DNA from: Halopiger xanaduensis SH-6
GTDB taxonomy: Archaea > Halobacteriota > Halobacteria > Halobacteriales > Natrialbaceae
Direction: 5' to 3'
DNA: 64,000 nt
Assembly: GCF_000217715.1 (NCBI RefSeq)
Contig: NC_015666.1
Location: forward strand, 1,128,270 to 1,192,269
Below, one piece after another: positions 27,806 to 30,608 of the stretch. The notes under the pieces are model-generated. The model made no database searches. It was not told the origin of the DNA and saw nothing but the letters and a program-made list of their open reading frames with translations. Every line of letters starts with the position of its first letter. Positions within the stretch are counted from its first letter, which is position 1. The position numbers were made by a program, and so were the translations under genes.

Positions 27806-28615
27806 TCAAGCCGGTTCGCTGTCGGCCTCGTCGACCGCGTTCGGGGACTCGTTGCGGTCGGTCACGCCCGGCAGGTTCGGATCGCGGTACGGGTTGCGGC
27901 CGTAGGCCGGAAGCTCGTCCTCGAGTTGCTCCTTCAGGACGCGTCGGAGCCGGTTCAGGCTCGTCGTGTCGAGGCCGTACTTGGCGGCGAGTTTCTTGAA
28001 CGTCTCCTCCTCGGTGATGTCGTGGGCGCGGTACTGCGCGAACAGTTCCTCCATGCGGTCGGCCGACAGCGCCTGCGCGTCGATGTCGTCCAGCCCGAAG
28101 TACGACCGCCGGTCGACGTCGACCACGTGGCGGATCACGACCAGCGCGACCTTCTCGATCGCGCGCTGGCTGCCGAACTCCGTCAGATCGATCTCGTCCA
28201 TGACGCCCAGCGCGAGGTCGCGCTGCCACGGCGTCACCTCGAGGGCGTTACACAGCGCCTGCGTCGTCCGCAGCCGGTCCAGCCGGTGGGCGCGCTCGCT
28301 GTAGCCCGGCGTCGCCGCGTGCTGTTCGTCGTGGAGGCGGCGGACGCTCTCGGAGAGGTCCGCGTCGGGGGACTCGGGACGACCGATGACGGTCGCGCTG
28401 GGCGTGACGACACCCCACTGGCGGACCGTCGAGTCGCGCTGGACGTCCGCACGGGAGAGCGATCCGGACCCGGGACGGGTCTCGAGGCGGCGTTCGGGGT
28501 CGGCGCCGGTGCCGGACGCTCGATACGACTCGTCGCCGTACTCGCCGGCGACGGCCGCCTCGCGGCCGACACCGTCTGGACCGCCCGGACCGGGTTCGGA
28601 ACCGTCGTCTCTCAT
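27806..28615 (-). CDS. Haloarchaeal 'RNA polymerase subunit epsilon' family protein
   Basis: 269 residues. The N-terminal 60 residues are disordered and Gly/Asp-rich. Then comes the conserved core VQRDSTVRQWGVVTPSATVIGR, a helical cyclin-like region (LRTTQALCNALEVTPWQRDLALGVMDEIDL and GSQRAIEKVALVVIRHVVD) and a C-terminal helix-turn-helix-like segment. From memory, this family is annotated as DNA-directed RNA polymerase subunit epsilon in haloarchaea. The repeated cyclin-like fold resembles TFB-type factors, so a transcription role is plausible but not proven. Its 5' end faces the structured-RNA array. Confidence 0.65.
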   Translation of the reverse strand: MRDDGSEPGPGGPDGVGREAAVAGEYGDESYRASGTGADPERRLETRPGSGSLSRADVQRDSTVRQWGVVTPSATVIGRPESPDADLSESVRRLHDEQHAATPGYSERAHRLDRLRTTQALCNALEVTPWQRDLALGVMDEIDLTEFGSQRAIEKVALVVIRHVVDVDRRSYFGLDDIDAQALSADRMEELFAQYRAHDITEEETFKKLAAKYGLDTTSLNRLRRVLKEQLEDELPAYGRNPYRDPNLPGVTDRNESPNAVDEADSEPA

Positions 28616-28675
28616 CGTGGTATTCGCTCAGACAGGGAGACGGAAAAAGGCTCGCTCGTTTTTGCGGAGTAGTAC

Positions 28676-28761
28676 GAAAATGATAATGACAGCAATCGTG
28701 TGTGAGCGACGACAGCGCCGTCGCTGCTCAATCAGCATCGGCGTCGCGAAAAGCCCTTCGT
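28676..28761 (-). ncRNA. Candidate structured small RNA, unit 1
   Basis: Predicted to start at 28761, 30 nt below the first T of the promoter repeat at 28761-28791. The 5' end ACGAAGGGC forms a hairpin with CGAA (nt 2-5) and TTCG (nt 12-15). A larger GCGAC/GTCGC hairpin follows. The 3' end is uncertain; a TTTT run at 28680-28677 is a candidate. No ORF with coding character fits. It lies 61 bases from the start of the epsilon-family gene, so it could instead be that gene's leader. Confidence 0.4.
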
Positions 28762-28791
28762 AGCTTCACCTTGTGACCAGAAGCACTTAAA
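28761..28791 (-). promoter_or_regulatory. Promoter repeat 1 (TTTAAGT ... CACAAGGTGAAGCTA)
   Basis: One of eight 31-nt elements on the minus strand. TATA-like TTTAAGT is at 28791-28785, the conserved core CACAAGGTG is in the middle, and a conserved A lies exactly 30 nt below the first T. Confidence 0.65.
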
Positions 28792-28895
28792 GAACGTCGG
28801 CGGTGACCGGGGCGCGCCGAACTACCGGTCCGACGCAGTAGTATCGACGGACCGGTGGCTACGAGAGGCAGTATACATCGGAAAATCTTCTTCGT
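28792..28895 (-). ncRNA. Candidate structured small RNA, unit 2
   Basis: About 104 nt between promoter repeat 2 and the TATA box of repeat 1. Its main domain is a perfect 9-bp stem (ACCGGTCCG at 28824-28832 with CGGACCGGT at 28848-28856, 15-nt loop), the strongest hairpin of the array. The 5' end belongs to the ACGAAG class, with a weak GAA/TTC terminal hairpin. No ORF is present. Confidence 0.5.
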
Positions 28896-28925
28896 ATCTT
28901 CAGCTTGTATCGAGAACCACTTAAA
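28895..28925 (-). promoter_or_regulatory. Promoter repeat 2
   Basis: TTTAAGT at 28925-28919, core ATACAAGCTGAAGAT. It is the most divergent of the eight, but the 30-nt TATA-to-A distance is kept. Confidence 0.55.
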
Positions 28926-29016
28926 GCGATTCGGGGACGCTACGATTCGCAGCGAGTGCCGGTCGATAACCGTCGCTACCGAATTGAGGACTCGAGAAGC
29001 GACGACTTCCCGTCAT
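28926..29016 (-). ncRNA. Candidate structured small RNA, unit 3
   Basis: About 91 nt beginning ATGACGGGAAGTCG. The 5' hairpin pairs GGGAA (nt 6-10) with TTCTC (nt 19-23). The second hairpin pairs AGCGA/TCGCT (28951-28955 with 28973-28977) with an inner CGGT/ACCG stem. ATTCGG pairs with CCGAAT near the 3' end. An ATG at the 5' end opens no meaningful ORF. Confidence 0.5.
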
Positions 29017-29046
29017 AGCTCTACTTTGTAGCCAGAAGAACTTAAA
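29016..29046 (-). promoter_or_regulatory. Promoter repeat 3
   Basis: TTTAAGT at 29046-29040, core TACAAAGTAGAGCTA, conserved A 30 nt below the first T. Confidence 0.65.
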
Positions 29047-29151
29047 CGAGTGACGCGATCGGTCGACCCGCAACCGGGAGTACGGCAGTTGCGGGCCGCC
29101 CGAGAGAAGCAACTACTGAGAATGGGACACCGCAGAACGTCTTCCCGTCAT
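29047..29151 (-). ncRNA. Candidate structured small RNA, unit 4
   Basis: About 105 nt beginning ATGACGGGAAGACG. It contains a perfect 8-bp stem (CCCGCAAC at 29067-29074 with GTTGCGGG at 29088-29095). TGACG at its 5' end (29150-29146) pairs with CGTCA at the 3' side (complement of 29051-29055), closing the molecule. The terminal GGAA/TTCT hairpin is also possible. It lies just downstream of the nucleotidyltransferase gene. Confidence 0.5.
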
Positions 29152-29181
29152 AGCTCCACTTTGTGACCAGAGTGACTTAAA
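29151..29181 (-). promoter_or_regulatory. Promoter repeat 4
   Basis: TTTAAGT at 29181-29175, core CACAAAGTGGAGCTA, conserved A 30 nt below the first T. It begins 50 bases after the nucleotidyltransferase stop codon. Confidence 0.65.
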
Positions 29182-29230
29182 GGAGCGTTGACGGTCGGTG
29201 ATCGGGGCGCTCCATCGGCGATGGGGCCGA

Positions 29231-30160
29231 TCATCGCACCGCTTCGATCACGTCGTCGATGAACGCGTTCAGTCGTTCGCAATCGGGGCCGTCCCGCACG
29301 TGTACTGCGGGATCGATCCGCTTCGGCGGGTGGGCGAACTCGCGTCCGACCCGATCGCCGACGCGGACGCCGCCCTCTCCGCGGCGCTTCCGCTCGAGCA
29401 GCGTCTGCGCCCGATCGATTCGATCGGCATCGAAGACCGCCGGCGCCTGCTCGGCCAGGAACTTCTCGAAGTCGATCGCCGGCAGGTTGTGGTCGCCGCG
29501 CTCGCCGGTTTCCTTCAAATAGCGAGCGTACATCGCCGCGCGGAAGACCGTGAGGTTCCGTTTCACCGTCGGCCGGGTCCGCGTTTCCTCGAATCGCTCG
29601 TCGTCGGCCGCGATCGTCATCGTCCCGGTGTCGCTGTCAGCGGCTTCGACGACGTAACCGTTCTCGGTTCGCTCGAGGATCGGAAAGATCGCGTCGTCGC
29701 TGCGGACCAGGTGGTCGGAGAGGTACTTCCGGTAGTTGTTCGCGGCGATCGCCCGCCAGTCGTGGTAGCACTCGATCGGGTTGTACGCACGCGTAATGTA
29801 CTCCATCAGATCGTCGGGGTCGTACAGGACGCGGTACCGAACCGGACTCCGTAGGAGATCGATCGCGCCCTCGTTGGAGTCGGCGAGCAACCCCGCGAAC
29901 TTGCGGACGTTCAGTCCCTGGAACTCGACGTCGCCACCGCTGTCGGTGATCGTCTCGCTCGCTCCCTCGAGGTGTGCGTAGGTCCGGAGGTCGTCGGGGA
30001 CGTAGACGAAGCCGACGTCGTAGTCGCTCTCCGGGCTCGCGGCGCCCCACGCGTGACTGCCGCGGGCGACCGCGAACGCGACGGTGACGTCGTGGCGCTG
30101 CTCGAGGGCTGCGAGACGGTCGTCGATTGTCTCGTGGACGTGCGTCGGAACGGCTGTCAT
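29231..30160 (-). CDS. Predicted nucleotidyltransferase (COG3541-like, DNA polymerase beta superfamily)
   Basis: 309 residues. The nucleotidyltransferase signature GSHAWGAASPESDYDVGF (GS, then DxD) lies at about 33-50. A later acidic residue in GGDVEFQGLNVRKF probably completes the metal triad. The rest is helical (NYRKYLSDHLV, AAMYARYLKETGE). Members of this family are predicted to transfer nucleotides to a macromolecule; the substrate here is unknown. It is flanked by seven structured-RNA units and driven by the same promoter element (30226-30256) that precedes each of them. A role in modifying those RNAs is my inference. Confidence 0.85.
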   Translation of the reverse strand: MTAVPTHVHETIDDRLAALEQRHDVTVAFAVARGSHAWGAASPESDYDVGFVYVPDDLRTYAHLEGASETITDSGGDVEFQGLNVRKFAGLLADSNEGAIDLLRSPVRYRVLYDPDDLMEYITRAYNPIECYHDWRAIAANNYRKYLSDHLVRSDDAIFPILERTENGYVVEAADSDTGTMTIAADDERFEETRTRPTVKRNLTVFRAAMYARYLKETGERGDHNLPAIDFEKFLAEQAPAVFDADRIDRAQTLLERKRRGEGGVRVGDRVGREFAHPPKRIDPAVHVRDGPDCERLNAFIDDVIEAVR

Positions 30161-30225
30161 CGCATCGTTCGGAAACGGCGGCGCAACTGCTCGCGGGGAT
30201 AACTGTCGACGAAAATCTCCCTTCG

Positions 30226-30256
30226 TAGCTCCACTTTGTAATCAGAACCACTTAAA
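30226..30256 (-). promoter_or_regulatory. Promoter repeat 5, upstream of the nucleotidyltransferase
   Basis: TTTAAGT at 30256-30250, core TACAAAGTGGAGCTA. The predicted transcript starts at 30226 and has a 66-nt leader before the ATG at 30160. The leader begins with an ACGAA/TTCGT hairpin (nt 1-5 with 14-18), matching the 5' hairpin of the RNA units. This copy fixes the reading direction of the whole array. Confidence 0.7.
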
Positions 30257-30342
30257 GGAACGTCGCTGACTCGAGTCGCCGATCGCTCGCGCCACCGGTT
30301 GCTGTCGAGTATAGTAGTCCGCGGAGAACGACTTCCCGTCAT
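30257..30342 (-). ncRNA. Candidate structured small RNA, unit 6
   Basis: About 86 nt beginning ATGACGGGAAGTCG. Two alternatives use the same 5' bases: a local hairpin GGGAA/TTCTC, or a closing stem of CGACTTCC (30329-30336) with GGAACGTCG (30257-30265) containing one bulged base. An internal GACTCGAGTC palindrome lies at 30268-30277. No ORF is present. Confidence 0.5.
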
Positions 30343-30372
30343 AGCTCTACCTTGTGAGCAGAGATACTTAAA
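30342..30372 (-). promoter_or_regulatory. Promoter repeat 6
   Basis: TTTAAGT at 30372-30366, core CACAAGGTAGAGCTA, conserved A 30 nt below the first T. Confidence 0.65.
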
Positions 30373-30476
30373 ACGACGACGGGTTAGCGGGATAGTTCAC
30401 CACCGGTCAATAGCAGCCACTGACCGGCGAGCTACCGGTGAACGAATGCGCCTCGAGAACGGCGAGTCTCCGTCGT
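30373..30476 (-). ncRNA. Candidate structured small RNA, unit 7
   Basis: About 104 nt, the clearest fold of the array. The predicted first seven bases ACGACGG (30476-30470) pair with CCGTCGT near the 3' end (complement of 30376-30382). Inside, GTTCACC/GGTGAAC (30395-30401 with 30437-30443) encloses CCGGTCA/TGACCGG (30403-30409 with 30421-30427). All arms pair perfectly. No ORF is present. Confidence 0.55.
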
Positions 30477-30506
30477 ATCTATACCTTGTGGGCAGAATCA
30501 CTTAAA
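30476..30506 (-). promoter_or_regulatory. Promoter repeat 7
   Basis: TTTAAGT at 30506-30500, core CACAAGGTATAGATA, conserved A 30 nt below the first T. Confidence 0.6.
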
Positions 30507-30578
30507 CCCGAATCGGCAATGCGGACGGAGTCGAGACTCGGTCGGTAGCGATCCCGAGAGAACCCGTCGTTCCGTCAT
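30507..30578 (-). ncRNA. Candidate structured small RNA, unit 8
   Basis: About 72 nt, the shortest unit, beginning ATGACGGAACGACGG. The 5' GACGGA (30576-30571) pairs with TCCGTC (complement of 30524-30529). CTCGG/CCGAG (30537-30541 with 30554-30558) forms an inner stem. An alternative local hairpin pairs GAAC (nt 7-10) with GTTC (nt 16-19). Confidence 0.45.
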
Positions 30579-30608
30579 AGCTTCACCTTGTGACTAGAGC
30601 GACTTAAA
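30578..30608 (-). promoter_or_regulatory. Promoter repeat 8
   Basis: TTTAAGT at 30608-30602, core CACAAGGTGAAGCTA, conserved A 30 nt below the first T. It is the first element of the array in the direction of transcription. Confidence 0.65.

Follow-up and report, generated by a model that had tools for sequence, protein, structure and literature searches.

The 64-kb window analysed here, part of a 4.36-Mb haloarchaeal genome placed in the family Natrialbaceae by its named relatives, carries on its minus strand a gene for subunit epsilon of the DNA-directed RNA polymerase, a gene for an RlaP-family nucleotidyltransferase and eight copies of a promoter-like element (Table 1). We suggest that these copies represent one promoter class and that epsilon, acting as a promoter-specific initiation factor for this class, is probably the protein that reads it.

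A sequence-only reading of this DNA had placed eight elements here, with constant internal geometry, and when the core TTTAAGTnnnTCTnnnnACAA was searched for across the entire window, three mismatches being tolerated, the same eight sites came back and no further ones, all on the minus strand. Their start-to-start spacings are as claimed (134, 121 and 135 nt, then, across a gap of 1075 nt, 116, 134 and 102 nt), and an invariant A lies exactly 30 nt past the first T in 8/8 copies. The conserved block is present and, at about 37 nt, extends slightly beyond the 31 nt first assigned to it. Six copies are followed by intervals free of open reading frames (ORFs), of 72, 104, 86, 105, 91 and 104 nt, and the two others lead into genes, RlaP and epsilon. 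Seven such intervals had been counted; the copy at 28791, the last of the array, had been taken for the promoter of another small RNA but leads into the epsilon gene after a predicted leader of 146 nt. The same leader class, ACGAAGGGCTTTTCGCG, also precedes epsilon in most Natrialbaceae.

Table 1. Features of the array in window coordinates. R1 denotes the promoter-free model described in the last section; short transcripts marked "inferred" are placed by inference.
Feature	Position	Strand	Remarks
DNA-directed RNA polymerase subunit epsilon, 269 aa; candidate for the factor dedicated to these promoters	27806..28615	-	annotation of RefSeq homologs
Predicted 5' leader of epsilon mRNA, class ACGAAGGGCTTTTCGCG, 146 nt to ATG at 28615	28616..28761	-	
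Promoter element 1 (TTTAAGT...TAYGA)	28755..28791	-	first T 28791; predicted start A 28761; leads into epsilon gene
Predicted short non-coding transcript 2, at most 104 nt before next TATA box	28792..28895	-	inferred
Promoter element 2	28889..28925	-	first T 28925; predicted start 28895
Predicted short non-coding transcript 3	28926..29016	-	R1, 39.6 bits, E 3e-11
Promoter element 3	29010..29046	-	first T 29046; predicted start 29016
Predicted short non-coding transcript 4	29047..29151	-	R1, 12.6 bits, E 0.011
Promoter element 4	29145..29181	-	first T 29181; predicted start 29151
RlaP-family (PF10127) nucleotidyltransferase, 309 aa	29231..30160	-	catalytic GS...D-Y-D motif intact
Promoter element 5	30220..30256	-	first T 30256; predicted start 30226; predicted to drive RlaP
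Predicted short non-coding transcript 6	30257..30342	-	R1, 20.3 bits, E 4e-5
Promoter element 6	30336..30372	-	first T 30372; predicted start 30342
Predicted short non-coding transcript 7	30373..30476	-	inferred
Promoter element 7	30470..30506	-	first T 30506; predicted start 30476
Predicted short non-coding transcript 8, 72 nt	30507..30578	-	inferred
Promoter element 8	30572..30608	-	first T 30608; predicted start 30578

Architecture of the element

Across 310 copies from many genomes, the consensus opens with a CCG-like motif at -10 to -8 relative to TTTAAGT and pyrimidines at -3 to -1, and proceeds through TTTAAGT, TCTGG, ACAAGG and AG to TAYGA at the presumed start, followed by GGG. The TATA-like TTTAAGT and the invariant TA 29-30 nt further on fit an archaeal TATA box about -30 to -24 before a purine start. 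The usual purine-rich B recognition element (BRE) directly upstream of the TATA box was not found in these copies, in which positions -6 to -1 are mostly pyrimidine. Comparison across genomes supports the view that the copies form a single promoter class, that conservation runs through the whole interval between TATA box and start, and that a dedicated factor probably reads the elements, all of which had been argued from the window; the earlier reader did not see the candidate, epsilon. A simple dimer site is unlikely, since the palindrome TCACaagGTGA of the Natrialbaceae copies is lost in other families (GCGAC...GGATA). Haloarchaeal rRNA operons have tandem promoters, and in this they are like the array, but the three rRNA operons of this genome do not carry the element (at least five mismatches).

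Exact matches to the core number 13 in the whole genome, against 0 for the reversed pattern, and five copies lie outside the window, at C1:224243 (-), C1:399200 (+) and C3:1205602, 1205721 and 1206720 (+). A single element at C1:224278 (L009 4279, -) precedes an SfsA-like gene, the leader being ~128 nt long, and the three units on C3 (C3:1205602-1206755; L011 5602-6760) are found near mptA (GTP cyclohydrolase). The RlaP/epsilon array itself adjoins mptA in several other Natrialbaceae, and for this reason the mptA neighbourhood may be the ancestral site of the array.

Epsilon genes and promoter types across the order

The element was sought in 394 genomes of the order, and epsilon was sought by profile in the same genomes. 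The element is present in 141 of the 394, and in 110 of the 125 genomes belonging to the Natrialbaceae; the reversed-pattern control gave 0 in all 125 family and all 394 order genomes. Both the element and full-length epsilon are present in 139 genomes, the element only in 2, epsilon only in 41, and neither in 212. One of the two element-only genomes is 87% complete (G263) and the other has one marginal match (G364). In family f5, the only genome with elements (G325, eight copies) is also the only one with full-length epsilon. Most epsilon-only genomes fall into that class because their element is divergent and was missed by the strict pattern: a divergent element adjoins epsilon in 26 of 30 loci from genomes scored as element-negative (among which G001 and G230 have one marginal match each), and several of these stand in arrays. 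With up to two mismatches allowed, the core lies within 500 nt upstream in 82 of 92 distinct epsilon loci, and the reversed control never had fewer than five mismatches. We also note a plasmid of Halococcus dombrowskii (NZ_CP095010.1; L159) on which the epsilon gene is flanked by two elements, one 115 nt upstream and one immediately downstream, and which may represent a mobile epsilon/promoter module.

The TATA/ACAA half is shared by the divergent elements, and it is the start half that varies. At least three forms of it exist: type I, TAYGA; type II, ATATAGAC; and type III, TAGTRA. On the maximum-likelihood tree of epsilon, type goes with epsilon clade rather than with host family, with 9 changes against a shuffled mean of 25.7 and 0 of 200 shuffles as low. 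The same holds inside the Natrialbaceae, where the type III promoter is found in exactly 10 of the 125 genomes, these being six of genus g2, two of g6 and both epsilon-bearing species of g10. Only the type III promoter occurs in g2, g6 and these two g10 species. The g2 and g10 epsilon belongs to the type III clade, and the three g10 species without epsilon have neither type of element. This matching of types to clades within one family is the strongest evidence for a functional pairing of epsilon and promoter, and the elements are probably the targets of epsilon because they are nearly confined to epsilon genomes and change type with it.

It could be argued instead that the elements belong to another regulator, such as a TFB paralog or an unannotated helix-turn-helix protein, and that epsilon is a mere co-inherited target. 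The epsilon gene stands behind an element in most loci and is thus a likely target, and this genome encodes about ten TFB genes (20 cyclin-repeat matches), which could read special promoters. Yet a target gene need not switch clade with its promoter, as happens here even within one family; the loss of epsilon in the three g10 species accompanies the loss of all elements; and no other gene was seen consistently beside the arrays across families, RlaP being absent or only remotely matched in the genomes tested outside the Natrialbaceae and a DsbA-like gene having been seen in f12 only. We consider this alternative rather unlikely, though one to be taken seriously.

Epsilon as a candidate initiation factor

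Subunit epsilon of the haloarchaeal polymerase was found in 1983, and to our knowledge the question of its role has had no answer since. By the annotation of its homologs, the gene in the window is of the same family as the known haloarchaeal epsilon (rpoeps, OE_1279R, of Halobacterium salinarum); the homologs, RefSeq plasmid proteins so named from Halorussus, Halococcus and Halocatena, share 56-61% identity over 77-87% of the query, and the 269-aa protein itself has no Pfam or NCBIfam match. According to a 2021 review, which terms the relevance of the subunit enigmatic, H. salinarum and a subset of haloarchaea possess epsilon, and polymerase containing it transcribes native templates efficiently; this activity, and the co-purification of epsilon with the polymerase, are known for Halobacterium only (PMC8305020, its refs 290, 291). 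Haloferax volcanii seems to lack epsilon. Literature searches on rpoeps gave a single paper and no account of target promoters or of an epsilon regulon.

An AlphaFold2 model built from 48 sequences, used in place of a poor earlier model from 9, has a confident helical core at residues ~105-232, with pLDDT mostly >90. The Foldseek matches of highest probability for this core are TFIIB, Brf2 and cyclins (7o4i_M 0.89, 7o72_M 0.82; range 0.89-0.4; E-values all at least 1), which weakly suggests that it may resemble the TFIIB/cyclin fold, a likeness of fold and not family membership. In TFIIB complexes the first cyclin repeat contacts DNA just downstream of TATA, and the conserved TCTGGTCACAA block is located at just this place, where TFIIB-type factors contact DNA.

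The computations show a promoter class that co-occurs with epsilon, precedes the epsilon gene and varies in type with the epsilon clade. On this basis we propose that epsilon, for which a TFIIB-like cyclin fold and a C-terminal end resembling a helix-turn-helix are predicted, would bind the conserved stretch from TATA box to start site and would recruit or license RNA polymerase at the elements, perhaps replacing the normal TFB contact, given that the promoters are without the usual BRE. Epsilon would in this way switch on its own gene and a run of short non-coding RNAs, encoded by tandem units spaced ~100-140 nt, together with genes particular to one lineage, such as RlaP in the Natrialbaceae and a DsbA-like gene in a second family. 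We infer direct binding, activation rather than repression, and intervals that are transcribed and act as RNAs; that these RNAs feed back on epsilon or the polymerase, in a 6S-like manner or through titration by many sites, is a guess. The wider proposition, that epsilon is an alternative archaeal initiation factor outside the TFB family, with a promoter class of its own, steering the polymerase to arrays of short non-coding RNAs and co-evolving with its promoters in a sigma-like fashion, seems to us evenly poised.

Regulons of alternative factors, whether bacterial sigma factors or haloarchaeal TFB/TBP, likewise have an extended promoter, self-regulation and a specificity that changes with the factor. 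The proposed system differs from them in its factor, a known polymerase subunit without sequence similarity to TFBs, and in its outputs, which would be mostly tandem short RNAs. In many genera the arrays offer a concrete, genome-wide and testable set of candidate targets for epsilon. Should epsilon indeed read them, archaea would have a factor for promoter specificity outside the TFB family, and the three matched types of promoter and factor, swapped between lineages, would amount to a natural experiment on the bases that are read.

Several results weigh against epsilon as the reader of these promoters. It is reported to help transcription of native DNA generally, and not of one promoter class (PMC8305020). 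No Foldseek E-value for the core was significant. In sequence, the TFIIB Pfam model PF00382 has no match to epsilon at E up to 1 and hhalign against eight TFB loci of this genome gave a probability of 0.2%, and we rejected homology to the TFBs on this level. The Fisher p of ~1e-65 for co-occurrence of element and epsilon in the 394 genomes is without correction for phylogeny, and some epsilon loci (L103, L127, L128) have no recognisable element. Co-distribution and autoregulation would also fit a different factor co-inherited with epsilon. The intervals, for their part, have folding energies equal to those of shuffled sequences (mean z about -0.1), and RNAalifold gave 0 consensus pairs on 50 standalone units and nothing on family sets either, one five-sequence set alone giving a few pairs; the structured RNAs of the sequence-only reading are thus not borne out.

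Two minor observations concern the epsilon genes themselves. In genus g87 the epsilon match of each of G350, G415, G387, G312, G379 and G421 has a single in-frame stop codon, which could reflect decay or an artefact of the start site. Some genomes (G144, G258, G274, the second match of G167, and others) have short and distant epsilon paralogs (E 1e-8 to 1e-21); those with listed coordinates cover only part of the profile, and several of the genomes are without full-length epsilon.

The intervals and the protein genes of the array

The intervals are short, partly conserved and probably non-coding, and presumably transcribed. Successive units are mostly 100-150 nt apart, and the predicted transcripts have in common GACGGGA, a later UUCU, and AG ~44 nt from the start. 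We built a model (R1) on primary sequence from the first 64 nt after the start in other Natrialbaceae genomes, with the promoter excluded. It matched held-out units of the window at 28965-29016 (39.6 bits, E 3e-11) and 30286-30342 (E 4e-5), and in another family it picked out units at the predicted start (L095, E 2e-8; L098, E 2.5e-7). At least some transcript bodies are therefore conserved. Small peptides were rejected as an explanation: some copies have an ATG (TATGACG) where others have ACG, and maximal ORF length does not exceed that of shuffles. Intrinsic terminators of the T-run type are not enriched at unit ends. Rfam had no match in the array at gathering score, and relaxed thresholds gave chance-level matches only; small-RNA arrays of this kind were not found in the literature. 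What the comparative evidence leaves of the small-RNA regulon first proposed is one regulon of mostly non-coding transcripts, without the shared structure, and a large set of probable small RNAs that have no Rfam family.

The array might also be chiefly a DNA device, in which tandem sites titrate epsilon and damp its autoregulation and the transcripts are by-products. Arrays beside the epsilon gene, the lack of shared RNA structure and the variable sequence of many intervals would suit such a device, but the promoter-free model finds held-out units, in the window and in another family, at the predicted start, so that some transcript bodies at least are conserved, and we consider this reading unlikely.

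RlaP is a clear member of its family (Pfam score 104 bits against a cut-off of 23; GSHAWG...SDYD conserved). It had been suggested that this protein may act on the RNAs, and RlaP is indeed a constant neighbour in the Natrialbaceae, flanked by same-strand elements, one upstream and one downstream, in 37/37 RlaP loci. Outside this family, RlaP is absent in most of the element-and-epsilon genomes tested and the remainder have weak or remote matches only, although the arrays persist there; outside the arrays, Haloprofundus has an RlaP (48% identity) with no element near. We therefore do not regard RlaP as a core partner, and rejected it as a universal one. A regulon of structured small RNAs that RlaP processes, tails or repairs would draw support from the bracketing elements and from the membership of RlaP in an RNA-repair-type polymerase-beta family, but given this distribution, and intervals with no consensus structure, it appears very doubtful. 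In family f12 (L132, L134, L135), the position of RlaP in Natrialbaceae arrays is taken by a gene for a DsbA/FrnE-like oxidoreductase, which lies upstream of epsilon with a group of units on either side. The constant core is therefore epsilon and the tandem units, with protein genes that vary.

Bacterial RNA-repair operons join RtcR/RtcBA with Y RNA or tRNA-like RNAs (PMC7790460), and likewise place an enzyme of the repair type next to small RNAs under a shared regulator. Unlike these operons, the array can dispense with its enzyme, RlaP. No rtcBA or Ro protein was found among the neighbouring genes examined, and Rfam gave no Y RNA or tRNA-like match in the array region.

A last reading would make the copies a dispersed mobile or repetitive element, of the miniature inverted-repeat transposable element (MITE) kind, with a promoter-like end. 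The element is indeed multi-copy and scattered in some genera such as g54, but its conserved block is just ~37 nt, its orientation and spacing are kept, a common second end is lacking, and its consistent place before epsilon in several families and its functional start-site features speak for a promoter; we disfavour this reading as highly improbable. In g54 (G220, G272, G287, G290) the elements stand singly across the genome and not in arrays, and some are followed by near-identical sequences (AAGATTTTCGCGGGCTGCTG...), which points to a single RNA present in dispersed copies.

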